From Asterochloris sp. CNOR1 (lineage: Eukaryota > Chlorophyta > Trebouxiophyceae > Trebouxiales > Trebouxiaceae): DNA of 64,000 bases. Numbering within the stretch: the first letter of the stretch is position 1; the number at the start of each line of letters is the position of its first letter. Shown in pieces: positions 28,885 through 56,900 of the stretch. Under the pieces are notes generated by a model that searched no databases, was not told where the DNA came from, and was given only the letters and a program-made list of their open reading frames with translations. The DNA is taken from the NCBI GenBank assembly GCA_963969365.1, contig OZ017752.1:2542001-2606000 (forward strand), read 5' to 3'. The translations under genes were made by a program, and so were the position numbers.

Positions 28885-28910
28885 CAAAGACCCTCAGCAG
28901 CTACCGCTAA

Positions 28911-31900
28911 GTAGGAGTCAACCTGGCTTCCCGTATATTCGCGCATTCTTTCCCAGGGCAAACGGGGTTAAACCTACGAATCTCGCTGAAGCCGGGCACC
29001 TCCCCCGTTTGGTGTCCCGTGAGACTTCCTCAAATATCATGAAAATTCGTTGGAAGTGACCTGCTGACTCCTCTCTCATTGCTTTCTGCAGGTCCCTTCA
29101 GGGCCCCAGTTTTATTTACTTCTAAGGGCTATAGAAGGCTCAAGTAAATGTCTTTCATGCAATGTGTACAGGGACTAAGCAATGCAATATGTGCCAGCAA
29201 GTATCTGTCATGCAAAGGAAGCTACTCAGCCTTCCACTCTGCAATGAGCTCATGGTAGACCTCCCTCTTGTACTCTTCCTGCAGCAGAGATGGGTGTGTC
29301 AGCAGCAGGTATTTGGATGTGTGTGGGAGTCAGCCAACAGCCGCCAACTCATCCAGCAGTCATTGCAACGAGAGGCTCTCCCAGTCTCAGTTTTACCAGC
29401 CACTCTCTCATTGGCCAAGCTCATCTTGGCAGCACACTGCCTGCAGAATTGGGCTGGGCCTCCCTCATGGCAACAGTTGAAGCCTTTGACCCAGGGTACC
29501 CAGTGTGGGAGCCAGGGCCCTCCTGATCAATCCACTTCTTGCTGCACTTGCAACACTGCAGCCAATAGTGATGCATGATTGGGTTGCAGCAGGCTGCAAA
29601 CAGGAACACACCTCAAGCTTCTACATCTCCCAAAACGGCCCCTTCCTGTCAGGAGTGAGCATCAGGCTCCTCCACATTCTTCACTCCTGCCCCACCTCTG
29701 TCACCCCCAGATCTTTCAGCATTGGCATCAGCCTCAGCTATGGCAGTGGCAGCCCTGCTCCTCTGTAGGACTCGGCAGATGCCTCAGTGAAGCTTGCAGA
29801 AAAGAGCCATGGACCAGAGCCACAGACCTCACACACCCTTTTGGGCTTCACGTGCTCGGATTCACTGCCAGTGTCTCTGCCTCTCCTGCCCCTCCTTGCC
29901 TGTGGGTGCAACCGCTGTTCCTTCCGGCTGAAGCAGCACACAACCACGCCACAGCTGGTGAGCTGGGGCGGAGTTCTGGCATCCGCAGGGTAAACGGCCG
30001 GAAAATACTATAAGAGTAAGCTCAGGAAACCCTTGGAGGTCCTGGGACTCGGGTGCGCTACCACAACCACTATGGTCGCGACAGCGTGCAATTCATACAA
30101 GGAGGACCCTTCGACCCTCTGCAGGAGAAGGTGCAGCACCTGACCTGGGGCTGTAAGCATGTGCCTGTACATGTGCCTGTACAGCAAGCATTGATGCTTG
30201 TGGAAAGGCTCGCATGTCACTGCACACTGTGCTTTTGCTGCAAATGCCTGGGAGCCTACAGTCCTGGCAGCTTGCAGAAGTGTCCTGTACTGCAGGTGAC
30301 GGTGGTCCTGCAGGAGCTGACCAGCAGCCAGGCCAGCAGCAACACACAGGCTTTCTCGTGCAGGAGCAGGCCGTCAGGTCTCCTGCCTGTCCCTACCGGA
30401 GTGAGTGGAGGTCTGCACCATGGGGCCCTGCTTTGTCACAGCCACTTCAAAAGCTGAGGGCCTCAGCAACTCCTTGGGGCAGTTCTGTGAGGCATCAGAA
30501 ATGCATCTTGGTTCAGCAGTCCACTGACTGGACAATCTCAACAATGCGTGCACATCCTGCAGAGTATGGACACTTGTAGATGCTCCACAGCTCGCTCAGT
30601 CTGTCATCACTGATCATTCTGACTGCACTGATCAGTCTGACAGCACTGGCCGATGTGATGGCACTGGTATGCTGCAGCACAAGGTGGCATCCCCGCAGGC
30701 CCTGAATGCCTGGTGGCCCTGCGTGTTCAGTCTCCTGTTTCACGCTTCATGACATGTGCGTCCTTCGCAATGTGAAGTGAATGACAGTGTGTGCAAGCGC
30801 CACATGATTGCGCCTGACTGGCGCCGGCCATGGGGCTGTCTGTGTCCTAAGCTGCTTGGGCAGACGAAACACTGGTTCATCTGGTGGGGACAGTGGGTGT
30901 CGTGCTCGTGCTGCAGGCCAGTCATGGTCGCAATCCAGGAGTTGATTGCCAGCACTGGGTTGCCACCTCACAGCAGGCAGCGGCTCTGGAGGGTGATGCA
31001 GCAGTACGGCTACGCTGACGGTGATGCAGTGGTGGTAGGGGTGCGAAGGCTGACGCCGGAGAGGCTTGAGGCAGCGGCGAGCGCGGCAGAGTTGGAGTCT
31101 CCACTGACCATGATGGAAGTAGACGCTCTGCTAGATGCAGCAGGTAAGCGTGTGATGATTGAGAGGAAGATGTCTTGAACTTCCATGCTGCGCAAAGCGC
31201 AGTCCCATCAAGGGCGAGCGGTGGTACCCTGAGGTTGCTGTTGGCAAAGGCTGACCTGATAGCTGAAGTGAGTCTGTCTGGGCAGCGGTCTACGCTTTGT
31301 CAACCATATCTGGCTCTGGAAGGCAGTGCTCTGCAGGTGGACATCGGCCTCCGCCCCAGTACACCATGACATCAGCGACCCGGCTGAGGTGGTGCTGCTT
31401 GTTTGCAGGGGTAGCCCCAGACCAGGTGCCCGGGGGGAGGCCCGCTCAGTCTCCAGGTGGGAATGACTCAGCCGCCTCTCTGTGGTATCCATCACAGCCC
31501 TTTCAGATCAGAGCCAGCAACATGCAGCCGGCTAGCAACTTTCAATTGACTTGTCCAGTCCCCGACTTGCACCAACCAGTGCTGGTCAGCCTGTGAAGCG
31601 CAGTGGTCGCATGTCAAGGCCTCTTGCATGACCGCACCAGTCCTGCACTGCTTGGGGATGCGACTGGACTGCACAGCTCGACCCTGCATCACCCAAAAGG
31701 CAGCGCTGCATCTGTGAATCCAGTAGAGAGGATGGGTCGGTGCTCTCCACAGCGCTGCAATAGTTGATGTTGCCAGCATGACGCCGTTGCTGCTGTTGAG
31801 GTGCAAGGCTTTCAGGGTGGAGCCATGCCCTGGTCGCAGGGAGAATGCAAGCTGGTCTGTGGGCCCACAGGCAGCCTGCAGCGGCAGCCTTGCTGCTGGC

Positions 31901-32468
31901 CTGCAACTCACCGCTTTCACGTCTTGCCCTGCAGGAGGAACCAATGGTGCTGGTGGCGCAGGAGTCGCCATCCCTGCAGGTGTGCACACAGGGCTTTGCC
32001 TGCTGGGTTGCTGGGTTGCTGCTCCAGTTCTGCTTGATGTGTTTTGCGTGGGTGGTGTCATCCATCCCCAGACATTACTGCATTGCCCTGCACTCCCAGG
32101 CATACGATTGCACTGGCCAGCCAACTCCCTCCCACTCTGCAACCTGCTCAGCAGCCTGGAGCATGCGTAAGCTGTTATGCATGTGCAGGGGTGTCAACAT
32201 CAGCTGCCTCCGCAAGCTCAGAAAGTGGCATCGAAGAGGCCCTGCGGGTGGTCGCTAATCACATGGGAGAGCAGAGCCGTCTGCAGGCCCGGCTGGCGGC
32301 TCTGGTGGAAGCTGAGCTCAGCCGCAACGCTACCATCAACGAAACACTCATCCAGATCAAGCAGCAGATGGGCGGCCGTCTGACCAGGTCGGACCCTCAC
32401 TCTAGCACAGAGGTCATGGCCCCGACTTCCTCGCGTGGCAGTGATGCCCACATGGATGACAACAGTCC
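28911..32468 (+). repeat. Left arm of the palindrome (uninterrupted)
   Basis: This 3558-base arm is the intact copy and shows the LINE target before insertion: TCGGGTGC at 30049-30056, where the right arm has TCAGGTGC duplicated on both sides of the LINE. It carries exons of an inward-reading gene on the plus strand and of an outward-reading gene on the minus strand. An 8-base tandem repeat at about 32001-32020 (GGGTTGCT twice) is single in the right arm. Confidence 0.85.
29222..29940 (-). CDS. Element-borne gene with a cysteine-rich motif, outward-reading, left arm
   Basis: Three exon-like stretches read towards the left end. The first, about 29940-29790, holds KPKRVCEVCGSG. The second, about 29600-29500 after a TTTGCAG acceptor, holds a CCKCSKKWIDQEG motif. 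The last, 29278-29222, follows CTGCAG and encodes EEYKREVYHELIAEWKAE and a stop. Two CxxC pairs plus nearby His suggest zinc binding. Codons differ from the right-arm copy (HH here where the right arm has YH), which suggests former selection on protein. The family was not recognised and upstream exons are unclear. It could be a DNA-binding part of a transposon protein, but that is inference. Confidence 0.4.
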
Positions 32469-32595
32469 AGAATTGTATTTGAGCACCCATGCTTCAAGCC
32501 TTGCACTTGAGATGTTGGCATCTGCAGATGATGTACTACCCTGGATGCAGGCGGAGGTCTCATCGTGGAAGATGGCGGATGCCTACCATTGTTGA
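30917..32595 (+). CDS. Element-borne coiled-coil gene, inward-reading, left arm
   Basis: Exon-like stretches run towards the spacer. One at about 30917-31143 ends at GTAAGC and encodes IQELIASTGLPPHSRQRLWR followed by a charged helix (LTPERLEAAASAAELES). Smaller exons are possible at 31410-31460 and 31934-31980. A long stretch from 32188 encodes ALRVVANHMGEQSRLQARLA, then ELSRNATINETLIQIKQQMG, clearly coiled coil. In this arm the frame runs past the palindrome into the spacer and stops at 32595. No catalytic motif was seen and I do not recognise the family. Confidence 0.4.
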
Positions 32596-32971
32596 AGCCC
32601 AATGACTTCCAAATATCAACCTCTGCTTGATGATGGATGGGGACAGTGGCCTCAGGCCAATATGTGGCAAGGATCTGAAGTTGATGACCTTTGCTGGTGC
32701 AGCCATGCCAGAGAGAGCTGAAGTACATCAGTATACTTAGAGCTTGGTGTCTCGCTTCTGCAGTGTCCAAACTGCTGCGTCTTCCCCTGAAGGTGTTAAT
32801 TCCTAAGGGATATGGGGTTACTAGGTCATCAGATGACTGATCTGCATCTTGCTGGCTGGTGTTGCTCTGCAAGGGCTGCATCTTCGTGACCTTAGGTGCC
32901 CTGGCCACTGATGGTCTAACTGAGTAAACTTGCTGCCAGTGCTGGTACACTCTGCATGCTAGTTGGCCATA
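32469..32971. other. Unique spacer (loop) between palindrome arms
   Basis: These 503 bases are present once. The minus strand stays open across nearly all of them (to about 32414) without a recognised domain. The sp acer supplies different C-termini to the inward-reading genes: the left-arm frame stops at 32595, the right-arm frame at 32959. Confidence 0.6.
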
Positions 32972-34520
32972 GGACTGTTGTCATCCAAGTGGGCATCACT
33001 GCCACGCGAGGAAGTCGGGGCATTGACCTCTGTGCTAGAGTGAGGGTCCGACCTGGTCAGATGGCCGCCCATCTGCTGCTTGATCTGGATGAGTGTTTCG
33101 TTGATGGTAGCGTTGCGGCTGAGCTCAGCTTCCACCAGAGCCGCCAGCCGGGCCTGCAGACGGCTCTGCTCTCCCATGTGATTAGCGACCACCCGCAGGG
33201 CCTCTTCGATGCCACTTTCTGAGCTTGCGGAGGCAGCTGATGTTGACACCCCTGCACATGCATAACAGCTTACGCATGCTCCAAGCTGCTGAGCAGGTTG
33301 CAGAGTGGGAGGGAGTTGGCTGGCCAGTGCAATCGTATGCCTGGGAGTGCAGGGCAATGCAGTAATATCTGGGGATGGATGACACCACCCACGCAAAACA
33401 CATCAAGCAGAACTGGAGCAGCAACCCAGCAGGCAAAGCCCTGTGTGCACACCTGCAGGGATGGCGACTCCTGCGCCACCAGCACCATTGGTTCCTCCTG
33501 CAGGGCAAGACGTGAAAGCGGTGAGTTGCAGGCCAGCAGCAAGGCTGCCGCTGCAGGCTGCCTGTGGGCCCACAGACCAGCTTGCATTCTCCCTGCGACC
33601 AGGGCATGGCTCCACCCTGAAAGCCTTGCACCTCAACAGCAGCAACGGCGTCATGCTGGCAACATCAACTATTGCAGCGCTGTGGAGAGCACCGACCCAT
33701 CCTCAACACTCTACTGGATTCACAGATGCAGCGCTGCCTTTTGGGTGATGCAGGGTCGAGCTGTGCAGTCCAGTCGCATCCCCAAGCAGTGCAGGACTGG
33801 TGCGGTCATGCAAGAGGCCTTGTCATGCGACCACTGCGCTTCACAGGCTGACCAGCACTGGTTGGTGCAAGTCGGGGACTGGACAAGTCAATTGAAAGTT
33901 GCTAGCCGGCTGCATGTTGCTGGCTCTGATCTGAAAGGGCTGTGATGGATACCACAGAGAGGCGGCTGAGTCATTCCCACCTGGAGACTGAGCGGGCCTC
34001 CCCCCGGGCACCTGGTCTGGGGCTACCCCTGCAAACAAGCAGCACCACCTCAGCCGGGTCGCTGATGTCATGGTGTACTGGGGCGGAGGCCGATGTCCAC
34101 CTGCAGAGCACTGCCTTCCAGAGCCAGATATGGTTGACAAAGCGTAGACCGCTGCCCAGACAGACTCACTTCAGCTATCAGGTCAGCCTTTGCCAACAGC
34201 AACCTCAGGGTACCACCGCTCGCCCTTGATGGGACTGCGCTTTGCGCAGCATGGAAGTTCAAGACATCTTCCTCTCAATCACCACACGCTTACCTGCTGC
34301 ATCTAGCAGAGCGTCTACTTCCATCATGGTCAGTGGAGGCTCCAACTCTGCCGCGCTCGCCGCTGCCTCAAGCCTCTCTCCGGCGTCAGCCTTCGCACCC
34401 CTACCACCACTGCATCACCGTCAGCGTAGCCGTACTGCTGCATCACCCTCCAGAGCCGCTGCCTGCTGTGAGGTGGCAACCCAGTGCTGGCAATCAACTC
34501 CTGGATTGCGACCATGACTG
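32959..34520 (-). pseudogene. Right-arm copy of the inward coiled-coil gene, frameshifted
   Basis: This is the mirror copy of the left-arm inward gene. The coiled-coil exon (about 33252-32959) is intact and ends MAN-stop in the spacer-proximal sequence. The upstream exon carries an extra AG within 34371-34382 (GGAGAGAGG where the left arm has GGAGAGG). This shifts the frame after LTPER and leads to an early stop. The right-arm copy is therefore probably non-coding or depends on different splicing. Confidence 0.4.
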
Positions 34521-35382
34521 GCCTGCAGCACGAGCACGACACCCACTGTCCCCACCAGATGAACCAGTGTTTCGTCTGCCCAAGCAGCTTAGGACACAGA
34601 CAGCCCCATGGCCGGCGCCAGTCAGGCGCAATCATGTGGCGCTTGCACACACTGTCATTCACTTCACATTGCGAAGGACGCACATGTCATGAAGCGTGAA
34701 ACAGGAGACTGAACACGCAGGGCCACCAGGCATTCAGGGCCTGCGGGGATGCCACCTTGTGCTGCAGCATACCAGTGCCATCACATCGGCCAGTGCTGTC
34801 AGACTGATCAGTGCAGTCAGAATGATCAGTGATGACAGACTGAGCGAGCTGTGGAGCATCTACAAGTGTCCATACTCTGCAGGATGTGCACGCATTGTTG
34901 AGATTGTCCAGTCAGTGGACTGCTGAACCAAGATGCATTTCTGATGCCTCACAGAACTGCCCCAAGGAGTTTCTGAGGCCCTCAGCTTTTAGAGTGGCAG
35001 TGACAAAGCAGGGCCCCATGGTGCAGACCTCCACTCACTCCGGTAGGGACAGGCAGGAGACCTGACGGCCTGCTCCTGCACGAGAAAGCCTGTGTGTTGC
35101 TGCTGGCCTGGCTGCTGGTCAGCTCCTGCAGGACCACCGTCACCTGCAGTACAGGACACGCTGCAAGCTGCCAGGACTGTAGGCTCCCAGGCATTTGCAG
35201 CAGAAGCACAGTGTGCAGTGACATGCGAGCCTTTCCACAAGCATCAATGCTTGCTGTACAGGCACATGTACAGGCACATGCTTACAGCCCCAGGTCAGGT
35301 GCTGCACCTTCTCCTGCAGAGGGTCGAAAGGTCCTCCTTGTAGGAATTGCACGCTGTCGCGACCAATAGTGGTTGTGGTAGC

Positions 35383-35390
35383 GCACCTGA
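35383..35390. repeat. LINE target-site duplication, copy 1
   Basis: GCACCTGA on the plus strand (TCAGGTGC in LINE orientation) lies immediately past the LINE 3' tail. The same 8 bases occur at 40751-40758 beyond the 5' end. The uninterrupted left arm has TCGGGTGC once at the matching place. The first two or three bases could partly belong to the LINE's TCA-rich tail. Confidence 0.75.
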
Positions 35391-35953
35391 TGATGATTTG
35401 ATGATTTAAATTTAAAGTCCGTAGCCTCAATGCACGGGCATAGGACTATGATCATTTCATCCTACCAATGAACTTTGCTGAAGGTGTAGGGGTACAAAAA
35501 GAAGCAGTACAGGCATATCAAGCAGGTCACTGTACTTGGCTGGTAAAGAGGGAGCCGGCGCTCATAGCAGGCCTTGGCACTGTGCTGGGCTTCATCACCA
35601 CGTTGGACTGCTAGCTGAGGTTGCTGCCCGAAATGCAAACACCCTGGATCCTGTATGGCGCAGGGGGGGGCTCAGCCCCCCTGACTGGCTTGCCACGCCC
35701 TCTCAGCTCGTAGACTTCGCAGTCATGAGAGAGTTATGCTTGGGTATGACTGTGACCAGCAGTCTTCCCCTCGCAGGGCACCAGGCGGCTCCAAGGCGGC
35801 ACACCCCAAGCAACAACTCAGCATGGGGACCTTAGGGGAAGACAATCATGTGATGAGTCTAGCGCATTGCTATGGAATTGGGGCTCTAATCAGCAGCTGG
35901 TGAGCTGGGGACACATCACGGCACATAGAGGGGTCACCCAGGGTGTCTGTTCC

Positions 35954-38900
35954 TCATTTAGGCCCAGATGTGCCCCCAGTGATGCCCAGCATATTTGCGT
36001 GCTGGAGCAGTGCTGCCCTGATGTATGTGGCCACTCGGCTTGGTGGTTGTTCAAACAGCGTTGCCAACGACTGCTGCTGCTCCGCAAACAGGTGGCTGTG
36101 AGCAGACCAGAGGTCTGCAAGTCCTGGGCAGTGTAGCAGGATATGGCTTTCATCCTCAATCTCATTCGGTGACCCACAGATTCGGCATGTCCGGTCCTCT
36201 CGCTTGAGCTGGGGCAATAGGTATCGCCCAGTCTGTACGCGCAGCTGGTGGCTGCTGCACCTGATGCTGGCATAGGCTCTGCGTAGCCTGAAGCCTCTGA
36301 TCCTGGTCAGGTATGTCTGCATGGCATAGGCCGTGTTGGGACCCCGCATCTGCATGTAGGTGGCCACGGTGGCGGCCTGGCAGTCCCTGAAGCGCTGCTC
36401 ATGCTGTTCCTTGCCAGGGGCTGTCTCTGCGCTGCCATGTGCCTGTAGTGCACAGAAGGGGGCCAAGGAGAGGTCGCGGTACAGCGGCAGGTAGCAGACG
36501 CCGTCATACATAGCCCATAGCAGGGGCTCCTTCTGAAGCTTCGGCTTGAGGTCCCAAATGCGTTGTCTGAACCTGTCCACTTGCCGCTGCCAATGCACTG
36601 CCGGGGGATATCTGCCAAACTCAGCAAGTGCAATCAGACTGTGTGTGTGGCAGTGGATGCCAAGCAATCTGCGCAAAAATTGTGCATGCAGAGACTCAAG
36701 CTGCGCTGTGGCTTGTGTGCCTGCTCTGTGGTCCCAGAACCAGACCTCACAGCCATAGCTCAATATGGGCAGCACCAAGGCATCAAACAACTTGCAGATG
36801 CGGCGCGGGCACGTCAAACTGATTTGTGCACAGCGCCTGAGCATGTTGTTCATGGTTTCACGCGCAGCTTCCAGGTGCTCGCCAAGGGATTTGGCAAAGC
36901 CCTCCTTGGTGGCTTCAAACCACAGGCCCAGGTACCTAAATGAATCCGAGCGCGTCAGGGGGTGCCCACTGTATGTGAAGGTGCTGCATTCTTGGCGCTG
37001 TGTCTCAAACACCACCACTTCCGTCTTGACCAAACTGACTCTGAGCCGCCTGTTTTCACAGAATATCTGTAAAGCATTCAGCAATCGTTGCAGTCCTTCT
37101 TCACTTGTGCTCATGAGCACCAAATCGTCTGCGAAGAGCAGCAGCGGCACATCATGAAACATGAGCGTGGGTGCATGGTTTCCTTTAACTTTGCGCATGA
37201 CCTTGTCCAGCACATCGATCAGCAGTCCAAAGAGGAGTGGGCTGAGGGGGCTGCCTTGCTGCACTCCTTGCAGGCACCTGAATGCCTCAGATATGCCCCC
37301 TCCAGCCCTGACCGCTGCCGAGTCTTGGGCGTACATGCTTTGCAGGCAGCTCATGAAGTGTCCACACACCCCCAGGTTTTGTAGGACAGCCCACAGCACC
37401 CCGCGATCCACTGTGTCAAAGGCCTTCTCAAAATCAACAAAGCAGCAGAAAAGCTTGCTGTTGTGCCGCCTATATTTTCTTACCAGAATGTTCAGTGTGC
37501 TCAGCTGTCCAGCAGTGCTGTGGCCCCTGCGGAAGCCAGCCTGCGGTGGTGCTCTGAGATTGAGCGCTTCCGCCCACCGGGTCATGCGCTGCTCCATCAC
37601 TGTGGCAAATAGCTTGGCCAGCACAGGAACGACCGTGATTGGCCGGTAGCTGTTCATGTTGAGAGGATCCCTCCGTTTTCCCTTGTATACTGCAGTGACT
37701 AGGCCAGTGCTGAGCGACGTGGGATAGGTCCCCTTGAGCATGCTGGTGAACAGCTTGGCTAGGCAGTGTTGCATGTGGAATGGCCCATGCTTCAGCAGCT
37801 CTGCACTCATGCCATCGATGCCAGCTGCTTTGCCAGCACTCAGTTTGCGCAGACCAGCCCGCACATCAGAAATGGTGCAGTCAGCATTCAGGAAAGCATC
37901 TGTGCCAATATGTACTCCTGTGATGGTGTCTTCAGGGAGCAGCTTTGGGACGGCAGCAGATGCGGGATGGCTGCCCAGCACCTTCTGCATGTGCGCAGCC
38001 TGGATGGCACTGGACAGCGGGCACCCAGGGCGCCTGCGCCACCCTGCTATGCGATGAAGATCCGGCAATGAGAGGTGATCCATGCGGCGCATCTCGTTGG
38101 TCAGAAACTGTCGATATTTGCGGCGTCGGACAGCCCGGTGCCTGCATCTTAAACTGTTAGCAGCAGCGTGGTGGGCAGTCAGCACAGGAGCCCTTGCTGC
38201 TGCTTTCCATTCACGCCATGAGGCCCAGCATTCTGCATCAAACCACACCGGAAACTGGCGGGGTTTCTGGCCCCTTCCCTTCTTCAGGGCAAAAGTCTGC
38301 ACAGCAGCGTCAGCCAAGCATCGTGTCATAGTCAGGACCCCAGCCTCTGGGTCTGCACAGGCCGCATCTAGCTGCTGCTGGTCTGCAGCACACAGAAAAT
38401 GCTGCCAGTACTGCTCCTCCCTTTCGGCCTCAAACTTCACAGCAGGCACTTGCAGACACCCTGCCTTTGAGTGGGCTGGCTGGTCAGCCTGGCCATTGTA
38501 GGCTGGGGGCTCCTGTGCAGCAGGCAGCCTGAACCGTGCCATCACAGGGTGGTGGTCTGAGCAGCTCATGTATGGTGTGCTTACTTTCTGCAGGACTTCA
38601 AGCCGCTCTGCCCAGGGGTAGAGGGCTGACGAGGCCATGTGGTAGTCCAGCGTGGTGCGCACCACACGCTTGCGGCCGCGCATGAAGGTGGTCCTGCCAG
38701 TTGGGTCGCCATGGACTCTGCCATTGAGAATGAGCAGGGAATTGTCCTTGCAGAACTGCAGTTGCTGGCGACCTCTCCTGTCTACTGCATGGGGGCACTC
38801 ATTTCTTCTTTCTGGCACGTGCTCTGGCAGTTCATCTAGAGCCTGTACAGCATCAGGGATTTCAGGGCCCTCCAGCATCACATGGTCTGGCAAGGTCCCC

Positions 38901-39361
38901 GTGTGGGCATTGGTGTCCCCACACACCCAGAACTGAACACCTCTGGGCAACTCTTGAGAGAGTAATCTCATGTCTGCAGATAAATCCTTGAAAGTGGACA
39001 GATCTTTGTGCTTGTGGCCTGGGGGCATGTAGCATGTGGCAAAGGCAACGTGCTGAGGGTGATCACCCCCCAGGCGAACATGCAGCCACAGGTAAGTGCC
39101 ATCTGGAGCACATTTCCAAACAGAACAGCGGTCAGCCCACTCGCGCTTTATGTAGACAGCAATACCCCCATGCGGTACCTTGCCACTTTGTAGGTGGCTG
39201 GGGCGCACAAGGTCATGGTAAACATATCCTTGCATGTCAGGCAGGTGTTCGCCATCGGCGTGCCAGGTCTCTGTCAGGCAAATGAATGTGCAGTTCAGTG
39301 CCACCAAGTTCTGTAGTGCATCAGGCATTGACAGGTGTGCTCTGCTGAGCCCCCCGCGCAT
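35954..39361 (-). CDS. LINE ORF2: AP endonuclease and reverse transcriptase
   Basis: 1135 residues from the first ATG. It nicks target DNA and copies the element RNA at the nick. Endonuclease motifs: LTETWHA (about 29-35), GDTNAHTG (about 148-155), TTLDYHMAS (about 236-244) and SDHHPV (about 268-273). Reverse transcriptase (about 500-790): GIDGMSAELL, YRPITVVPVLAKLF, FVDFEKAFDTVD (about 641-652), GVQQGSPLSPLLF and the catalytic FADDLVLMS (about 743-751). A C-terminal CxxC...HxxxxC cluster lies at about 1059-1078. The frame stays open for 15 codons upstream of this ATG, back to the ORF1 stop, and those codons read AAELSAVLWN, containing the endonuclease's conserved N-terminal Asn. The true N-terminus is therefore probably upstream (see findings). 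Confidence 0.95.
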   Translation of the reverse strand: MRGGLSRAHLSMPDALQNLVALNCTFICLTETWHADGEHLPDMQGYVYHDLVRPSHLQSGKVPHGGIAVYIKREWADRCSVWKCAPDGTYLWLHVRLGGDHPQHVAFATCYMPPGHKHKDLSTFKDLSADMRLLSQELPRGVQFWVCGDTNAHTGTLPDHVMLEGPEIPDAVQALDELPEHVPERRNECPHAVDRRGRQQLQFCKDNSLLILNGRVHGDPTGRTTFMRGRKRVVRTTLDYHMASSALYPWAERLEVLQKVSTPYMSCSDHHPVMARFRLPAAQEPPAYNGQADQPAHSKAGCLQVPAVKFEAEREEQYWQHFLCAADQQQLDAACADPEAGVLTMTRCLADAAVQTFALKKGRGQKPRQFPVWFDAECWASWREWKAAARAPVLTAHHAAANSLRCRHRAVRRRKYRQFLTNEMRRMDHLSLPDLHRIAGWRRRPGCPLSSAIQAAHMQKVLGSHPASAAVPKLLPEDTITGVHIGTDAFLNADCTISDVRAGLRKLSAGKAAGIDGMSAELLKHGPFHMQHCLAKLFTSMLKGTYPTSLSTGLVTAVYKGKRRDPLNMNSYRPITVVPVLAKLFATVMEQRMTRWAEALNLRAPPQAGFRRGHSTAGQLSTLNILVRKYRRHNSKLFCCFVDFEKAFDTVDRGVLWAVLQNLGVCGHFMSCLQSMYAQDSAAVRAGGGISEAFRCLQGVQQGSPLSPLLFGLLIDVLDKVMRKVKGNHAPTLMFHDVPLLLFADDLVLMSTSEEGLQRLLNALQIFCENRRLRVSLVKTEVVVFETQRQECSTFTYSGHPLTRSDSFRYLGLWFEATKEGFAKSLGEHLEAARETMNNMLRRCAQISLTCPRRICKLFDALVLPILSYGCEVWFWDHRAGTQATAQLESLHAQFLRRLLGIHCHTHSLIALAEFGRYPPAVHWQRQVDRFRQRIWDLKPKLQKEPLLWAMYDGVCYLPLYRDLSLAPFCALQAHGSAETAPGKEQHEQRFRDCQAATVATYMQMRGPNTAYAMQTYLTRIRGFRLRRAYASIRCSSHQLRVQTGRYLLPQLKREDRTCRICGSPNEIEDESHILLHCPGLADLWSAHSHLFAEQQQSLATLFEQPPSRVATYIRAALLQHANMLGITGGTSGPK

Positions 39362-39406
39362 GTTCCATAATACCGCGGAGAGCTCGGCAGCATGGGTCCC
39401 TTCTCC

Positions 39407-40678
39407 CTAGCAGCTCCTATCCAGGAGCCACCGGCCGCTGTCGGTGCGGATCCAAATGCGGTCCAGTCGGAAGCAGCAGGTGATGTTCTGCTTGCGCAAG
39501 TCGCGAAAGCGGCCCATGGCCAGGCGCTTCCTCATCTGCTGCTCAGGGGTCAAATCTGGCTGCAGATAAACCTTGTTAAATGCTGGATGGTGCTTGAGCT
39601 GACTTGCAGCACGTAGTACACTGGCACATTGATCTTTGCGGGCAACCCGTATGCGCACAGGGGGAGTCTTCCCTGTCGCATTTCTCAGCTTGATGCGCTC
39701 TACCTTCAGCACCTCAACACCCTCAAGGTGCAGGCCATCCTTCAGCATGTCAGCAACCTGGTTCTGAAGCATGCCCACATCCTCAGTGCTGAAGTCCTGT
39801 GCATCAGGCCCCTCGCAAGTCATTCCATGTGCCACCACCACATCCTCATTAGCAGGTACACTCTTATCTGCAGGCTCCGCCGCTCTGTCTGCATCACGCT
39901 CCTGAATCACCCGTTCCAGCTGGGTCTGCTGCTCCTCAGTCCTCATTTGCGTCTGCCGCAGCCCTGCCTCTACTGCCTGCATTGCAGCCTGGCTTGGCCC
40001 ACTGGTGGCTGCCGTGGTCTGTGCCTGCTCAAGCTGTTGCACCCGCTGTAAGGTGGCTGCCAGTTGCGTCTGGGTATCTGTCAGCTTTTGTTCTACTGCA
40101 CTGAGCTTCTGCTCCAGCTGCTGGTCCCGGCCGCGAAGCATGTGCTGGACCATTGCCCTTATGTCTGCTTCTGATAAGACCTTTGCAGGCCTCATGTCTG
40201 CAGCGGCGTCGCTGCCTTCTGCAGCCTGTGGTGCAGGCGTCAGCAGCACTGCGGGCCCCAACTCCCCCACCTCAAGGGCGGCAGGGGTGTTGTTACCAGC
40301 ATCAGCAGCTGAGGCTGCTGAGGCTGGTGCCAAAAGCCCAGTCTCAGCAGGTCCAGACACCAGCGCATCAGGCTCTGCAGTCGGTGCCAAAGGACCAACT
40401 ACAGGCAATGGCGTCACGGCCATGCTGCCACCTGTCTTGCCACCTGCCCTGCCTCCTCTTGCATCAGGCAGGCGTGCCTGCTTGGCGAGTCTGCTGCTGT
40501 CTTGGCCTCCATCACATTCAGTCAAATCATCGCTCTTGTCGGCCCAGCGGTTCACTGTTGTATCCTTGCCAGCCCTCCCAGGCTGCACCCTGCTCAAAAG
40601 AGGCGGTGCTGCTGGTCGGCCAGGCTTTGGCGCCTCCCGGCCTGGGCTAGATCTGCGCTGTGCTGAGCTGAGCACCAT
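39407..40678 (-). CDS. LINE ORF1: nucleic-acid-binding coiled-coil protein
   Basis: 423 residues from the first ATG inside the element; an in-frame ATG at 40774 lies in the flanking arm and is discounted. The N-terminal third is Pro/Ala/Gly-rich and basic. A coiled coil spans about 166-265 (LEQKLSAVEQKLTDTQTQLA). It is followed by an RRM-like region (about 278-365) and a C-terminal segment with DLTPEQQMRKRLAMGRFRDL, the order found in L1 ORF1 proteins, which bind element RNA and act as chaperones. It ends DRSC and UAG. That UAG is in the same frame as ORF2. Confidence 0.85.
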   Translation of the reverse strand: MVLSSAQRRSSPGREAPKPGRPAAPPLLSRVQPGRAGKDTTVNRWADKSDDLTECDGGQDSSRLAKQARLPDARGGRAGGKTGGSMAVTPLPVVGPLAPTAEPDALVSGPAETGLLAPASAASAADAGNNTPAALEVGELGPAVLLTPAPQAAEGSDAAADMRPAKVLSEADIRAMVQHMLRGRDQQLEQKLSAVEQKLTDTQTQLAATLQRVQQLEQAQTTAATSGPSQAAMQAVEAGLRQTQMRTEEQQTQLERVIQERDADRAAEPADKSVPANEDVVVAHGMTCEGPDAQDFSTEDVGMLQNQVADMLKDGLHLEGVEVLKVERIKLRNATGKTPPVRIRVARKDQCASVLRAASQLKHHPAFNKVYLQPDLTPEQQMRKRLAMGRFRDLRKQNITCCFRLDRIWIRTDSGRWLLDRSC

Positions 40679-40720
40679 GCGATCAGTGTCAACAGCAGAT
40701 CGCCTGAACTGAGAGTGGTG

Positions 40721-40750
40721 GACCCTCCAAAGCTGGACCCTCCAAAGCTG
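40721..40750. repeat. 15-base tandem repeat at the LINE 5' end
   Basis: Two exact copies of GACCCTCCAAAGCTG (plus strand), 40721-40735 and 40736-40750, end flush against the target duplication. They may be 5' monomers or a copying artefact at integration. Confidence 0.85.
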
Positions 40751-40758
40751 GCACCTGA
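40751..40758. repeat. LINE target-site duplication, copy 2
   Basis: GCACCTGA on the plus strand, identical to 35383-35390, adjoining the LINE 5' end. Confidence 0.75.
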
Positions 40759-40879
40759 GTCCCAGGACCTCCAAGGGTTTCTTGAGCTTACTCTTATAGT
40801 ATTTTCCGGCCGTTTACCCTGCGGATGCCAGAACTCCGCCCCAGCTCACCAGCTGTGGCGTGGTTGTGTGCTGCTTCAG

Positions 40880-41584
40880 CCGGAAGGAACAGCGGTTGCA
40901 CCCACAGGCAAGGAGGGGCAGGAGAGGCAGAGACACTGGCAGTGAATCCGAGCACGTGAAGCCCAAAAGGGTGTGTGAGGTCTGTGGCTCTGGTCCATGG
41001 CTCTTTTCTGCAAGCTTCACTAAGGCATCTGCCGAGTCCTAAAGAGGAGCAGGGTTGCCACTGCCATAGCTGAGGCTGATGCCAATGCTGAAAGATCTGG
41101 GGGTGACAGAGGTGGGGCAGGAGTGAAGAATGTGGAGGAGCCTGATGCTCACTCCTGACAGGAAGGGGCCATATTTGGAGATGTAGAAGCTTAGGTGTGT
41201 TCCTGTTTGCAGCCTGCTGCAACCCAATCATGTATCACTATTGGCTGCAGTGTTGCAAGTGCAGCAAGAAGTGGATTGATCAGGAGGGCCCTGGCTCCCA
41301 CACTGGGTACCCTGGGTCAAAGGCTTCAACTGTTGCCATGAGGGAGGCCCAGCCCAATTCTGCAGGCAGTGTGCTGCCAAGATGAGCTTGGCCAATGAGA
41401 GAGTGGCTGGTAAAACTGAGACTGGGAGAGCCTCCCATTGCAATGACTGCTGGATGAGTTACCGGCTGTTGTCTGACTCCCACACACATCCAAATACCTG
41501 CTGCTGACACACCCATCTCTGCTGCAGGAAGAGTACAAGAGGGAGGTCTACCATGAGCTCATTGCAGAGTGGAAGGCTGAGTAG
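40880..41584 (+). CDS. Element-borne gene with a cysteine-rich motif, outward-reading, right arm
   Basis: This mirrors the left-arm gene. Exon-like stretches are about 40880-41040 (KPKRVCEVCGSG), about 41208-41310 after TTTGCAG (CCKCSKKWIDQEG), and 41528-41584 after CTGCAG, encoding EEYKREVYHELIAEWKAE and TAG. The LINE lies just upstream and antisense, so any transcript from the spacer side would now run through 5.4 kb of LINE sequence. Family and function are unknown. Confidence 0.4.
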
Positions 41585-41896
41585 CCTTCCTTTGCATGAC
41601 AGATACTTGCTGGCACATATTGCATTGCTTAGTCCCTGTACACATTGCATGAAAGACATTTACTTGAGCCTTCTATAGCCCTTAGAAGTAAATAAAACTG
41701 GGGCCCTGAAGGGACCTGCAGAAAGCAATGAGAGAGGAGTCAGCAGGTCACTTCCAACGATTTTTCATGATATTTGAGGAAGTCTCACGGAACACCAAAT
41801 GGGGGAGGTGCCCAGCTTCAGCGAAATTCGCAGGTTTAACCCCGTTTGCCCTGGGAAAGAATGCGCGAATATACGGGAAGCCAGGTTGACTCCTAC

Positions 41897-44800
41897 CTAC
41901 TGCTGGCGCCCTGCTGCTCCCAGGCCCAGCTTTTTGGGCCTCCTGACTGCCCTTACAGGTTCTGTGATGCCCTGCTGCTCACGGCCTAGGCCACTGCCCT
42001 GCCCCGCAAATCCCCACCTGCAGGTGATAAGGCGCAGAGAAGTATCAGAGCTAGCACAGCAGACAAGGCAGATCTGCAATACACGCTTGAGCAGCACCAG
42101 GCAGCAGCACAAGGCAGACGACAGCTTACTTGGCCATCATGCGCGAGCCATAGCCAGTGTTGTGCTGCTCAAAGCTCCCATAGGCTAAGCCTGTGGCCAC
42201 AGGGCCAACCTCGAGAGCAGAGCCCTGTACGCAAGAAGAGGGTTTACTGGAAAACACCTATGATCAACCAAGCAAACAGCAGTAATGTGCGCTTGGATGA
42301 AGAGAGGCCTCCTTATGATCAAAGCAGCACGTCTTGGTGGACTGCATTCGTCTGCAAGATTATCAAACTGCACACACCTGAGCACCCCGCATGGAGCGTC
42401 GAGCGTCCTTCTCCTCCTTTTTCTTGGCCCGTTTCAGCTGCTGCTTGGTCATGAACATTGCTGGTGGTTTTTCAGGGGGGCGCTGCCGCGCCCAGTGTGG
42501 ACCGCCTCGCTGGTTGCCTACAAATTGGAGATGGCAGGACTGTTGCAGGGGACCAAGGACTTAAGAGTGCAACGAGCAGTCTGCTCGGCGCAACATCTGC
42601 GCCCACTCTGCACAGTGTCTAGTGGACAGACCAGTGCCATAACAGTACTGACTGTGTACCTGGCATGCTGCCATCTGAGCTGGGGCCGATGCTGCTGCCA
42701 CCTGCGAAGCCCAGGCCTGCAAAGCCCAGTCCGATGCTCTGGGGCTCAGCATCCTCCAACTCCGCCAACCGCTCAGCAGAGCCGATGGCGTCGCACAACT
42801 GCAGCCTGCAGTCACAGAGATTGGCCGGGACGGTCAACACATTGGAGAGCAAGATGCCTTTGCTCAGCGCCTGCCGCTGCAGAGGCCAAGCAGCAACAGC
42901 ATCTTTTCTCCTCCAGAGGCCCTGTTTTGCACTCCGAGCAATGCACCCCAACTCTCACCGCTCGGATGAGGGCGCCTGCTCTACCTCTAAGGCCTCAGCA
43001 TCCAATAGCTCTGCTGAGTGTGCATCAGGGGCCAACCTGGACTGGTCAATGCCCACTGTCGCACCTGCAGAGTGTGTGCTACACCAGTAAGTATGCAACA
43101 GCCAAGACAAGGCCAGCAAGCCAAAGAGAGCCAGCTCAATCAGCCAGACATTGGAGCAGCAGGTACAGTGGGCAAGCTGGTGCACAAAACTGCGATGGCC
43201 CCAAAAGCCTCGCACCTCCATGTTTCTCGGGTAGTATACAACAGCTGGGGCACCTCAGTGATTTCCAAGGACCTCCTGTCATATGGTATGCAGACAGCAC
43301 ATTGCTGCACACCAGAAGCAGTGGTCTCTGTGCCCCTGATTGCGATGCTGCACACGATAGCACCTTTGACAGGCTTCCCAAGAACAGGCTCTGCCACAAA
43401 GCCCGCCTAGCTGCCTCAAACCTCCCTGGACACTCAAGCGTCCCTGCTTGGTCTCCAACACACCCAAGCGTCCCTACCAGGAGACAGACCAGCAGGGCTC
43501 ACCGTCCCCAAGATCCACTGACACGTACAGCCTCTCAGCAATGACAATGCCAGTCTCGCAGCAAGCCTCCTCAGGGCCCCTGTCCTCGCAAGCTGCGGCT
43601 GCCTGCTGCTCTGCAATGGACTGCAGGGGAGCCTTCACCTCCATGACATCCATCTTCATGACCCCGCTGCTGACAAAGCGCAGAGGCTGTTTGAAGGCGG
43701 GGAGCGCCTCTGCGTGGCGCCCTGCAGTACTATTACAGACAATGGTGCGAGAAGCAAACGGTGTCCTGCAATCGCACAAAGGTCAGGGGCGAGATGGTGC
43801 AGGGTAGCATCTTGCCATAAGAGTTGGCACCCTGACTGGCAGACAAGTGCATGATGCTTGAGACAGCTGGGGCCTTGCTCAGGCTGCACAGAATTAGCAG
43901 CTGAAAACAGGGGAGCGGCGGCCCAATGCTTTGCAGGTCATGCAGAGGCTGAGGAGGAGACAGCAGCCTGTGCATCGCTGTTCACACATGCTGTTCTGCG
44001 GGCAGATGAGATTGTTGCAGGTGCACAATTCAGATGTCCTGCCAAGCAAGCATTCAACTTGCAACAGTGCGCCTCTGCAGCCCCACGCTCTGAATGCGCA
44101 GCTGGTGGACAGGACTGCCAGACATTAAGGCCTTGAAGTCCTCTGACACTGCATTGCAGGCTGGCAGCCCACCTGCTTTGGGCTTGGAGGGGTCCCAACT
44201 GCTCCTGCGCCGCGCCTGCTGCGGCTGTCGGGTGTGCTGCACCTTGCCCCGCCCAAAGGCTGCCTCTGCCCGCGTCTGGTCAGCCAACAGCGCCGCCACC
44301 TGCTCCTGGGCCTTTCCGCTTGGCAGCGCTGTGCGCTCGCAGGAGGCTATCTGCAGTGGGACATCAGATGCAGTCTGTCAAGCTATGTCACTGCAGGCAC
44401 CCAATCTGGCGCCAGCAGGCAGCATCTGCTCTGCTGTGCACATGATCTCACGACGCAGCCGCACCCACAATGCAGCAGTCCTGCTGGCGCATGGCACGTT
44501 CAAGTCAGCGGTGCCCTGCCTCTGCACATTGCCCAGAGTAGCTGCATGGCAAGCTACCAATGTGCAAAGTAAGGCTGCTGCAGCCTGAAATTGCCAGGGC
44601 CACCAACGCACCAGTGCAGGCAGGTTGCTTACCACCACAAAGCGCTGCTTGCCAGAGCCCTGCACGCTAGACTTCAGGCCGTACAGGGACGCCAGCTTCA
44701 TGGTGATCTGCTGCCCATACTTGTTGGCTGGAGGGAAACCCTGCATATAAGCACACTATGTCTGCTCATGCGAGACCAGCTTGCACATGAAAGTGTGTGG

Positions 44801-46871
44801 CAGCTGCCAGTCAAAATCACTCCATCCAGCTTTAAACAGACATTGCCTGCGCTGCAGCTTGGCCCCTTGGGAGATCAGGTGCCCTCATGCATAGGAACCA
44901 TGCAGCAGCAAGAGAACAAGCTTCAATAGGGAAGAGCTGCATGCTCTAACCCTGCATCCTTACAGCATCTTGGCCTTCAGGTGAGTTGCATTTTCACAAT
45001 CACAAGGCAACACTCATCCCAGACAGAGCCCACCTTCATGTCCCCCCTGTGTGCCACAAACAGCTCCAGCTCCTCGTTGACCTTGCGCAGGTCCAGGCCA
45101 TGGGCCGCAGCTCTTGCTGCCCGCTTGCCGTCCACTGCAGCCCGCTTAAGCTTACGCTTTTCGCCTGGTAGCAGCTGCCCATGGTTCGCGCCGCGCACTG
45201 CCCCCTTACTGCGGCGGCCCCTGGCACCACTGCCTGCAGCCAGAGAGGGCACAGAATCAGCCTGTAACCTCTCAAGCGCAGACACTGCCTTGGGGGGTGC
45301 TGCAACCTGCAGCTGCAAGGTGCTTGAGGCCTGCAGTGTGCTTGAAGCCTGCCACTTGAACTTTGGTGTCCGACAAAGATGTCCAGTTCTCGCGGCGGGC
45401 TGTTCTGTCTGCTAAAGGCAAGAATAGTGGGGTCAAGCTGATGCAGAAACACCAGGTGTTACTGCAGGACAGCTGTCCAGGGCTTGCCATCTCAAAGCAC
45501 TGCTGCTGTGTAGCCCTTGAAGCTCTGGGAGCAACATCACTCTATGCAGAAGAAAGCTGGTTTTCCAAACATGACTGCTCCTACCTTTGGGGCTTGAGGG
45601 AATGTCCCTTGCTTGCACAGGGAACTTCTGCTGTAATGACAGTCCTGCCCCAAATTCGTCAATTATTTCTCCAATGCTGGCATCTGACTCATAACCTGAG
45701 CTGGTGCTGTGCTCAGAGTCTGCATCGGAGCTGCTGGATGCCGCACACATGGCGTCTGCAGCATCAGCAGCAACTTGGCAGCCTGCAGGGGCCAGGTCCT
45801 TGAGGCTGCAGAGTTCAGCAACAGATGCAAGCAATCTCTCAGATGGCTTCTGCAGCATCAACAGCAAATTGGCAGCCTGCAGGAGCCAGCCAGCAAGCAG
45901 GGGCCTTGACGAGGCAGTGATCTTTGACAGCTGAAAGCATGTTGTGACCTGTGCCTCTGTAGCTGAGCGCTGAATGCAGCTTGGTAGTGTGCAGGTGCCA
46001 GAACAGCAGGACGCTCTAGGGACTGCAGAATTCAGCAGCGGCCAGGACAGCATCCAGGTGTCACCTTGCACTTCTGCGCTGCAGTCCTCCGCCAGCTTGG
46101 CCCTACCAAAGCGCTTCATGGCCCTGCGCAGAGCCAGCACCTCCTGCAGCACAGGAGCATTGTGTCTCAGCAAGTGAACCACGCACAGTCCTCAGCTGCA
46201 AATGCAGAGAGAGCTTGTGCATGTGATGCACCCTCCATGGCTGCATTGTCTGAGAAGCAGCAAGTCAGTGGGCAGGGCAGGTCAGGCATTATGGTTCCCA
46301 GCAAATCACCTGGTCGTCTGTGTCGTCCCCGCTGTGGTGAGCCGCCAAGTTTTGCAAGTAGTCCCCCAGCATGTCCTCATCTGAGGCCTCGCTCTCCTGC
46401 TTGGGATCCTGCAGCTTGACCCTGGAGTTCCCCGGACATTCGCTGCCCAGACTTTGCCTCCGACGCTGCAGGTACATCAGTCATGCTGTGCTTCAACAGG
46501 CAGCTTCTCAACTCCAGCTCAGCTACATGCAGCCACAGTGGCAGGCGCTTGCCTGGCCATTCCTGCCTGCTGGCTGCATCCCCTGAACATAGCCTTGTGA
46601 CGTTAGAATGTGGATGTTGCCAATGTGCAGGCCATCCTCATCCTGCACACAGCACTTGCCGAGGTGCTCATGTGCTTCCATGCATGCAGGCGTCATAGAG
46701 CTGGCTGGCTACCTCCAAGTCCAAGTCACGGCTTGCCCTTCTTTTGCCAGCGGTCTTCGAAGGAGCAGTAGATCTCTTCCCGACTTTGAACCTCCTTTTG
46801 CCCATGTTGGGCAGAGACCACTTGGCAGGCTTCCTCAGATTCCTTGAGGTCAACTTGAGGTCTAGCTCCAT
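41897..46871 (-). CDS. R3H and G-patch domain protein (plant D111/G-patch type)
   Basis: Such proteins bind nucleic acid through R3H and stimulate DEAH-box helicases through the G-patch. The order of parts matches plant D111/G-patch proteins as I know them. A basic first exon (46871-46713) contains MGKRRFKVGKR. An acidic stretch near 46420-46310 contains ASDEDMLGDYLQNLAAHHSG. A Ser/Asp-rich stretch near 45730-45660 contains SDASIGEIIDEFGAG. The R3H domain is split between exons near 45340-45034 (LRKVNEELELFVAHRGD) and 44760-44640 (ASLYGLKSSVQGSGKQRFVV). Then come PLRFVSSGVMKMDV near 43700-43640 and the G-patch in two exons, 42184-42130 (FEQHNTGYGSRMMAK) and 42017-41897 (GSGLGREQQGITEPVRAVRR). 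Spliced, the G-patch core reads AKWGF where AKMGF is usual. Several middle junctions are not fixed. The stop codon touches the right end of the palindromic element. Confidence 0.78.
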
Positions 46872-53900: not shown

Positions 53901-56900
53901 TCGCCAGAGCCTCAATGTGTGCCAGCTTTTGCCACAATGCGTGAGCTGCAGGTACGACTCAGTGACCAAGCATGGCATCGCCAACCCTCGGCAGCACTTG
54001 CAGAGCACCTTCCCTGGTGGCATCGCCCTGGAGACAGTCTTTGTCAACCCCAGCCTGCTGCAGCAGCTGGACGCTGCGCTGGAGGATGCCATAGCCTCAG
54101 CCTCCTGGTGCGATCTTCAGGCGCTGCTGCCCCCCGTGCTGACGGCGGCCGATGTGGGAGCGTTGCTGGGCCACAGCTCCCCGCTGCAGGCTGCAGGTGG
54201 GCATGGAGACTTTGAGGCAAGTCCTCTGGGCCCCTGCCTGCACAGAGATGCAGGTGCGCCAGCAGTGTAGCCGCTTGCTACTGTCCACCTGCCCGGCCAA
54301 CTGCTGCTTGAAGCCGCCTCTCCGTCTGTGCCCTTTAAGCGGGTGCACCATGCTGATGTGGCTCCCTGTCTGCAGAGAGGAGCCCGGAATCCTGCAGGGC
54401 CATGACGGTGCTAGCCAGCCCCCATTTTCCCAGCTTTTGATTCACCTGCCATGCTGTGACGTCTCTGTTGTTCTGTGTGCAGAGAGGAGCAAGGACCCCA
54501 GCAGGGCAGCGACGGTGCTGGCCAGCACCTGCGTGGTCAGCCGGGGCTTTGTGGACGCCCTGCAGGTACAGGCCTCCGAGGAGGCACGGCGCCTCGCAGA
54601 GGCAGCTCTCCAGCAGCGTGCGGCAGCCAAGCAGGCTCCTGCCGCTTCCGGCGCTCAACAGGGTGGGTGAGGCTGTCAAGGTGCCACTGCCTCTGCCCCA
54701 CAGGGCAGTGTATATGTGCAACATGCCTACGTGTCAAGCCTGTGGCATGTATCCAGCAATGCTGGCACAAGCTTTCAGAGCATCTTGGCCGCTGCACCCT
54801 TGACTCGTGTTGCTGAGCCAGCCAGTGTTTTGAGATAAGGGCCCTCGGGCTCTACTGTCCTTGCTGTGGCCGCATCTGTTCCTGTTCGTCAGTATTTGCA
54901 CTGTCTCATACGGGCATAGAAAAAGCATTGTACTGACAACAACTCATCTGCTGCAGGCAAGGAGGCCGCCAAGGCAGCAGCCAAGGCGGATGCTGGCGCA
55001 AACAGTGACCCTGATGACTGGGAAAGCGGCAGGAAAGGAGGTTAGTGTGCAGGCCAAACCCTGTTGCTGCAGGCTCCTGGTGGGAGCGGGCCCGACTCTG
55101 CAGACCTGTTGCTGCATCTGCACATCGCATGTGATACCCTGGGGGTCATGGCAGCAGGGCCATTTCACTAGCCTTGACTGCAGCGGCATGATGTCTTTCT
55201 TGCCTGCAGGCAAGAAAGGCAAAGCAGGCAAGAAGGGCAAGGCTGCCGCTGCCGGCAGCAAGGGGAAGGGTGCTGAGGCCCCGGCAGGTGCCCCCGGCAG
55301 GGGCGACGGCAGAGGCAAGGGGGCACGCGGGCAGGACGAGACCCTGAGCCACCAACTTGGTGTGGCGGGACTGACTGCCCTTGTGGAGCAGTGGCAACCT
55401 GATGTTGGGGAGGCAGGTGCGCCAAAACTGTTCGTGGGAGATGGGGCATGGCAGTATCATCATACCCTTCTTAGTGTAAAGCTGGGCAGGGCTGTGTCTG
55501 TGCTGTGGCATGCCATGGACCAGCATGGATTTGACTTGAGCTCGCGGTGTCATCAGCATGAGCAGGTTGGCCCGCCAGATCTTGTTTGCGGTTTTCACAA
55601 CAGGCAGAGTCATTCGCACTGGCCCCATGCAGTGGTGCTTGCAGCGTTGAGCTCTCTGGGGCCTGGCAGTGGTGTGACCTGGGCCAAGCAAGCTCTGTGC
55701 GTGTGTGCAAAGGCTTATCATTCACCCATGTGCAACAGTCTGCACTCCTGCAGGGCATGATGGAAGGCTGGCGCGAGCTCTGGCAGGGAGCGTCCGGGCA
55801 GCAGCAGTCGCAGAGTATGAGAGCACCATCACTGCCGTTTTTGTGGCAGGCGCAGAGGTCAGCCATGTTGACAGGCCTCCTGCAAACAAGTCACACTGTT
55901 GTTGTGGCATGCCAGGCTGCATGACCCCTGGGACTGGCTGGGCCTGCAAGTGGCCTTGCTGCCAGCAGTCTTGCCGCCTTGACTGCTATGCAGTTACACA
56001 CCGTCATCTTCTTGGTGCCAGGCACCAGGTGATTGGATGCTGTGCAGCCCAATGTTGCATGTGACAACAGCAAAAGCTCAGGCTCCTCCTGTGGGTACCG
56101 GCCTGGCACCTTTGGTGCCACCATGGTGCCACCATCCTGCAGGGATGCCGCTGCAGGCACCTGAAGGTGGCTAATGGCCTTGTGTCCAGGCTGCTCAGCG
56201 GCCTTCAAAGACACACCGGATCTGCAGGCACGCCAACACTGGCTACAGGTGCCACACACATCACCTCCTGACCAACAGCAGCTCACTGGCCAGCTCACAT
56301 GTCCTGCAGGCACGACGGCGCAGGCGGGAGCAGATGGCTGCTGGCCTGGATGCAGCCTTCCAGCAGTACCAGCTGCTGCGCCACGGCTGCAGCTCCTTTG
56401 CTGCCGACGCAGCTGCCAGCGCCTCCCTGCAGCGCCACCTCGTGCGCACCCGGGGTGCAGACATATCAGACGGCATTCTGCAGTATCTGGTGGGCCCTGA
56501 CAAGAACCCTCCAGAGCCCAGATTGCGTTGTTTGCAACAAGGCAAGAGCTGTTGTACATAGCACCATCAGAGTGGCACACCATAGTCGGCTGTGAGGGAC
56601 ACAGGTCCCTAGCACAGCCCCTGCTGGGGACCTGCTGTCCGCGCCCGCTTGCCTCGGGCTATTTTTGCAGCCAGCCAGAGGGTTACGGCCTGTACTTGCC
56701 CCTTGTAGTGACTGCAGGGAGTGATCTGCTCTGCCAACTAGTCTGTGCAGCTGCTTCGACCTGCACAGTCTGCAGGTAGGCTGCCGCATGGCCCCTGATG
56801 TGGGACGATGCTGGCAGCTTTGCGTGAGGCCTGCCACCTGCCCCTGTTTTGAGCAGATGCTGCAAATATCTACTGCTTCTGTCTCCTGACTGCTTGCAAA

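Follow-up and report, generated by a model that had tools for sequence, protein, structure and literature searches.

Foldback elements such as FB and Galileo carry very long terminal inverted repeats (TIRs) around a short centre and are flanked by target-site duplications (TSDs) of 9 or 7 bp. A mirrored terminus with a short loop is also known from the helper-dependent copy-back, or snap-back, defective interfering (DI) genomes of adenovirus and RNA viruses, and defective genomes that copy back are known among linear protein-primed replicons, as in adenovirus panhandle repair and the yeast hairpin plasmid. The latter, reportedly described by Kikuchi and colleagues in 1985, is said to be a palindromic or hairpin deletion derivative of a protein-primed linear plasmid. 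Polintons (or Mavericks) and Polinton-like viruses (PLVs), for their part, have AG...CT tips. In the green alga Asterochloris sp. CNOR1, a long palindrome, here named E1, is located in a window of 64,000 nucleotides, the whole stretch of DNA that was analysed (contig OZ017752.1, or C7, positions 2542001-2606000). E1 is probably an integrated, non-autonomous and palindromic relative of PLVs, inserted by an integrase and replicated in a copy-back manner by the PLV machinery.

PLVs are described in one survey as having TIRs of hundreds of bases and 6-bp TSDs made by an rve-type integrase (PMC12220804). E1 and its relatives in the same genome resemble Polintons and PLVs in TSD length and in their long TIRs, and have a terminal repeat and an exon in common with a PLV-like locus of this genome, E15. 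In contrast to Polintons and PLVs, these palindromes, about 7.6 kb long where uninterrupted (E2 and E3), consist almost entirely of TIR, with 0.5 kb of unique sequence, and no homologue of a capsid, integrase or polymerase was found in them, which is why they are considered non-autonomous.

The palindrome of the window was confirmed, with one long interspersed nuclear element (LINE) in its right arm. An inverted-repeat search of the window placed the arms at 28908-32468 and 32972-41899, the right one being split by an insert at 35391-40750. The arm lengths (3558 and about 3557 bases, the 8-bp LINE duplication being counted once), the 503-bp loop and the LINE are as claimed by a model that had been given the letters alone (hereafter, the sequence-only reading), while the limits of the element, 28909-41898, are each two bases beyond those that it gave. 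In the arm alignment, the outer 1,150 columns are 98.0% identical and the inner 2,428 columns 98.6%. The insert was identified as a LINE because of its RVT_1 (6.3e-33) and endonuclease (2.1e-8) domains, and is 99.7% identical to the LINE of another copy, E11. Folded as single-stranded DNA, the loop showed nothing special (z -0.83), and Rfam and tRNA scans of the element returned no match. In window coordinates, the features are the following:

28903..28908, no strand: left TSD, ACCGCT, with 5 of 6 bases equal to the right flank
28909..32468, forward strand: left arm, outer to inner, 98-99% identical to the inverted right arm
28911..29066, forward strand: terminal segment common to E15 (24-kb PLV-like locus on contig C10), 79% identical to the 155-bp E15-tip query, E 6.4e-30
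29338..29541, reverse strand: gene A exon, cysteine-rich (zinc-finger-like by eye), reading toward the tip; tblastn 38%, E 2.9e-8
30924..31143, forward strand: possible first exon of gene B, from ATG to a GT splice donor, read by eye; weak signal in the ratio of nonsynonymous to synonymous polymorphism (pN/pS)
32188..32595, forward strand: putative last exon of gene B, crossing from arm to loop, based on the pN/pS of its arm part
32469..32971, no strand: loop, the unique centre, with homologous sequence (part or whole) at 8 places including E1
32972..35390, reverse strand: right arm, inner part, from the arm alignment
35391..40750, reverse strand: LINE with RVT_1 and endonuclease, in the right arm only; 8-bp duplication at 35383-35390 and 40751-40758
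40751..41898, reverse strand: right arm, outer part, ending in CCTAC followed by CT, from the arm alignment and flanks
41265..41468, forward strand: gene A cysteine-rich exon, right-arm copy; tblastn 38%, E 7.4e-8
41899..41904, no strand: right TSD, ACTGCT, from the flank comparison

The genome (56.4 Mb in 21 contigs) was searched with pieces of E1, all match counts being lower bounds. The tip gave at least 33 matches and the inner arm at least 34, revealing a dispersed family, in line with the mobile long-TIR element proposed by the sequence-only reading. Loop homologues occur at no fewer than eight places, in full or nearly full length in E1-E5 and in part in E6-E8. Besides E1, seven palindromes with both ends are present:

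E2, C14:543964-551617
E3, C6:504708-512345
E4, C10:452658-458474
E5, C10:623005-631303
E6, C12:1146916-1156935
E9, C6:2348770-2397292, 48 kb long owing to later insertions; loop not found
E14, C17:182204-190756 (L023:205-8757), divergent; loop not found

The uninterrupted copies, E2 and E3, are about 7.6 kb long. At least seven further loci are truncated, namely E7 (C14:145-149k), E8 (C1:3871k), E10 (C6:3175k), E11 (C17:1422-1430k), E12 (C17:111k), E13 (C13:436k) and one at C5:336k. For these seven, no second tip appeared among the matches listed in the tip and E15-tip searches; single-arm copies bounded by two ends of their own, which the sequence-only reading had named as the sign of a simple inverted duplication, were not seen in these lists. 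Weaker, short inner-arm matches lie outside the family count.

Flank comparison established the length of the TSD. The 2-3 bp duplication (TA or CTA) initially read around E1 was rejected, a consistent signal being obtained at 6 bp alone: the element starts two bases further outward and is flanked by ACCGCT and ACTGCT, with one mismatch. Over seven palindromes (E1-E6 and E9) and the PLV-like loci E15 and E16, 52 of the 54 TSD bases match (6/6 in seven of the nine elements, 5/6 in E1 and E4), whereas 72 mismatched flank pairs, used as a control, agreed at 1.54 of 6 positions on average and at 3 at most. The TSD of E16 is TTTGTT (6/6), and E14, in a later and separate check, also has 6/6. The element start was taken as the dinucleotide preceding GTAGGA, mostly AG, with AGCAGCGG in E5 and ACGTACG in E15 and E16. 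Since this two-base offset was chosen after the flanks had been viewed, the control at other lengths matters; at 3-5 and 7-11 bp, no element except E4 approaches a match, with 6 of 7 bases at 7 bp. E2-E6 and E9 have AG on either side, E1 has AG on the right and AA on the left, and E14, E15 and E16 start with AC. The tip sequences of these elements are AGGTAGGA, AGCAGCGG and ACGTACGA, E5 having the other tip type, AGCAGCGG, on both arms. The arm segments of E14 are 71-76% identical to the window family, yet its tips are ACGTACG as in E15 and E16; judged from these sequences, E14 is a link between two tip types.

E15 (C10:147650-171833) is a densely coding locus of 24 kb with no difference between its terminal repeats in the first 166 bp, and E16 (C6:1550075-1571114; L033-L035) has terminal repeats of 567 bp with 100% identity. 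Both loci look like PLVs, and no other kind of element is known to us that combines these features. A capsid-like (32%, 4e-43), an ATPase-like (38%, 3e-56) and an integrase-like protein (37%, 7.7e-57) are common to E15 and E16. In E15, the packaging-ATPase-like protein matches a PHROG terminase (7.6e-5), and Pfam returned Peptidase_S74 (1.5e-11), a helicase-like AAA domain (0.0029) and weak thymidine-kinase and AAA matches. The open frames of E16 are capsid-like, ATPase-like, integrase-like and helicase/HNH-like, for which Pfam gave AAA and HNH matches below the cut-off and no family for the integrase-, ATPase- or minor-capsid-like frames; the capsid-like frame of E15 and both integrase-like frames likewise have no Pfam family. 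The integrase-like pair conserves three aspartates (E15 positions 74, 136 and 176), which were interpreted by eye as forming a D,D,D/E triad, and its profile weakly matched a Ty3 Gag-Pol chain only (0.022). Because Pfam is silent and this profile match is weak, the names capsid, integrase and polymerase are to be taken as readings by eye from order, size and motif. Searches of the PDB gave a single fimbrial match for the capsid-like protein (0.0083), which we do not believe, and a value of 0.43 for the ATPase. A structure model of a disordered E15 protein (predicted local distance difference test, pLDDT, 48) was not used. Scans of IMG/VR with three E15 proteins, the tip pattern and gene B, which detect close relatives only, found none.

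The palindromes have in common with E15 both their tip and a nearby exon. A 155-bp E15-tip query matches both ends of E1, E2, E3, E4, E6 and E9 (78-84%, E 2e-28 to 5e-35) as well as E14, at 81% on the right end and partially on the left; the E5/E7 tip type is not among its matches. In addition, an E15 frame near the right end (L026:3825-4175) is similar by tblastn to the cysteine-rich exon of gene A. This exon was matched in either arm of the window and at 12 fetched loci, representing 10 copies (25-48%, E 7e-5 to 6e-11), and the copies without a match (E8, E10, E11 and E13) lack that part of the arm. In E15 and in the palindromes alike, it is located inside of the tip and reads toward it; E14 has, at this same place, one opposite-strand match to an E15 frame. 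The pN/pS of the exon is 0.63, versus 1.11 and 0.95 in the shifted frames. All eight aligned arms have a stop at the fifth codon of the gene A frame, a position interpreted as upstream of the exon. Gene B, a possible second gene of the arms, would read into the loop. Over six arms (15 pairs), the arm part of its last exon has a pN/pS of 0.41 in frame versus 1.19 and 1.48 out of frame, and the first exon a weak signal (0.76 versus 0.88 and 1.18). Its open reading frame (ORF) has no Pfam family and no relative among the viral contigs of IMG/VR.

The two arms of a copy appear, from their alignment, to be copied as a pair from one template, a conclusion which draws on within-copy identity, on conflict between arm and loop trees and on a mirrored recombination. 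Among 13 aligned arms or arm pieces, with E14 and E13 set aside, arm identity is 98.1-99.9% within a copy versus 81.2-98.1% between copies (72 pairs). By its arms E2 groups with E3 (98.1%), whereas by its loop it groups with E1 (98.8%, E3 being at 91.8%). In an IQ-TREE analysis of five copies, the loop data rejected the topology that fits the arms best (approximately unbiased test, pAU 5.8e-5), and the arm data rejected the one that fits the loops best (pAU 3.9e-9). Copy E2 is mosaic: its outer part mainly resembles E3 and its inner part E1, and the main switch falls, in the left and the right arm alike, within the 24-column interval from alignment column 3835 to 3859; smaller E1-like patches (e.g. 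columns 841-879) are mirrored too, as is the different tip type of E5. It is improbable that the same event occurred independently in both arms, and the mirrored switch is thus attributed to one event, after which one arm was copied onto the other. Such pairing is compatible with replication and with chromosomal conversion alike.

Arm mismatches number 3 in 3,557 bases in E3, 10 in 3,576 in E2 and 38 in some 3,560 in E1. If arms are identical at insertion, E3 and E2 would be younger than E1. The window copy is a decayed member of the family and older than some others, since its arms differ by 0.7-1.8%, one tip base and one TSD base are altered and it has received a LINE.

Several insertions were observed in the family. 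Four of them, each in another copy, cluster in a stretch of about 55 bp in the 3.56-kb arm (arm positions about 1112-1166; window 30019-30073): the LINE of E1, the 99.7% identical LINE of E11, a 39-kb insert in E9 and, in E6, a 3.5-kb element whose inverted ends measure 57 bp. A TATA-like ACTATAAGAG is present nearby, in the interval separating gene A from gene B, and this cluster perhaps marks an open promoter. The 39-kb insert, in the right arm of E9 (C6:2356780-2395901), has a GC content of 50-55%, a longest stop-to-stop frame seen of 540 aa and no inverted ends that could be found, and an insert near the left tip of E14 has 724 bases identical to a stretch of it. Elsewhere in the window, short stretches of 50-97 bp are directly duplicated, with 79-90% identity, at 8283-8479, 45746-45889 and 54366-54529.

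The interpretation of E1 as a palindromic PLV relative includes directly supported components, namely the dispersed family, the 6-bp TSDs, the ends and exon held in common with E15, the paired arms and the mirrored recombination. As to mechanism, the palindrome would have arisen once or a few times from one PLV end and adjacent DNA and would then have spread as a satellite. A PLV integrase would insert it and a PLV polymerase would replicate it as linear DNA; the displaced strand could form a hairpin of 3.5 kb closed by a loop of 0.5 kb, and the second arm would be renewed in every cycle by extension of the folded-back end or by stem repair (copy-back, or panhandle). Copying during linear replication with PLV proteins is, in our analysis, the most likely route. 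No full-length parent with arm and loop contiguous was found, E15 having only the tip and one exon in common with the palindromes, and no DNA match was obtained between the left arm plus loop and E16; the copy-back origin is therefore inferred. As in the hairpin derivatives of linear plasmids, one replicon end is mirrored around a short centre; those derivatives are, however, cytoplasmic and seen in the laboratory, whereas the present elements are integrated and dispersed in a genome. Copy-back DI genomes have the same mirrored terminus and short loop but usually arise anew in passage, whereas here one loop lineage is found at eight or more places.

Several results weigh against this interpretation. 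No full-length PLV with DNA matching the arms beyond the tip was found, nor any counterpart of gene B and the loop in PLVs or E15. In a comparison of E15 frames of at least 80 aa, tip-region frames excluded, with the window and 21 loci, no match was obtained apart from the gene A exon region. The polymerase was assigned from motifs read by eye, and the capsid and integrase by eye plus weak matches; a search with PF03175 found no PolB in the genome, control genomes being equally silent, and a structure model of the capsid-like protein (pLDDT 30) was not used. Moreover, the arms of E14 are 92% and those of the truncated E13 96% identical, and mismatches crowd the outer third of the arms in E1, E2 and E3, not in E5 and E6, as conversion between arms might produce.

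The strongest contender, which we nevertheless regard as unlikely, is that the palindrome is PLV-related while its arms are kept alike by chromosomal gene conversion between inverted repeats, without hairpin replication. Long inverted repeats in chromosomes do convert, and the outward concentration of mismatches in E1 (21 in the outer 1,148 bp, 18 in the inner 2,420 bp), E2 (8 of 10 in the outer third) and E3 (3 of 3) looks as if stretches near the loop convert more often. This bias is absent from E5, with 5 mismatches over the first 1,140 bp and 15 beyond, and from E6, where the outer 1,481 bp hold 1 and the inner 804 bp hold 4, and E4 and E9 have no clear bias along their arms; as the copies disagree, no claim on age or on a conversion gradient is drawn from them. 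Furthermore, the LINE of E1 has been neither lost nor copied to the other arm, and the divergence of the E14 arms implies that conversion, if it occurs, leaves some copies unlike.

Far less probable is a conventional long-TIR or foldback transposon with an unrecognised transposase of its own and a captured similarity to PLV ends. TIRs, TSDs and dispersed copies are general transposon features, and two possible small genes are present per arm, which speaks for such an element, listed first by the sequence-only reading. Likeness to FB and Galileo is restricted to the very long TIRs and short centre: the TSD is of 6 bp, the length found in the PLV-like E15 and E16, and the homology with E15 spans the terminal repeat and a nearby exon with order and orientation kept, which argues against a classical foldback transposon. 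In agreement with the failure of that reading to recognise a transposase, a Pfam scan of ten arm and loop ORFs detected no transposase domain and no family above the cut-off (one match fell below it). Lastly, a chance palindrome is ruled out by copies of the same architecture at other genomic sites, and an assembly fold-back or simple one-off inverted duplication, although chimeric reads can make a perfect palindrome, is scarcely credible and was rejected, given eight palindromes with different flanks and separate TSDs, arms that differ by point changes and indels, and a LINE in one arm only.

In the literature searched (listed titles and abstract openings, subscription papers being mostly outside the phrase search), no palindromic or non-autonomous Polinton-like element is described. 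One large PLV survey starts from capsid genes (PMC10120064), and another retains inserts between TIRs only if they measure 6-80 kb (PMC12220804); with the filters so understood, palindromes that lack a capsid gene and have a centre of 0.5 kb would be missed by both. We tentatively propose, as a possibility rather than the likelier outcome, that these elements are heritable viral satellites: palindromic defective PLV genomes which have been through numerous cycles of hairpin replication, recombine in a co-replicating pool, have both arms renewed from one template per cycle, persist as integrated copies and maybe tax or silence the virus. Eight integrated palindromes versus two full-length PLVs were found in this genome. 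If this proposal is true, the satellites might tax or silence PLVs through competition for proteins or through palindrome double-stranded RNA directed against the end-proximal gene that both have in common. Protist genomes commonly contain PLVs, which would then have inherited defective satellites. The two arms of each copy would record the last replication cycle, like the two long terminal repeats of a retrotransposon, making ages and recombination readable from genomes, and PLV replication through panhandle or hairpin forms would become testable in extrachromosomal DNA.

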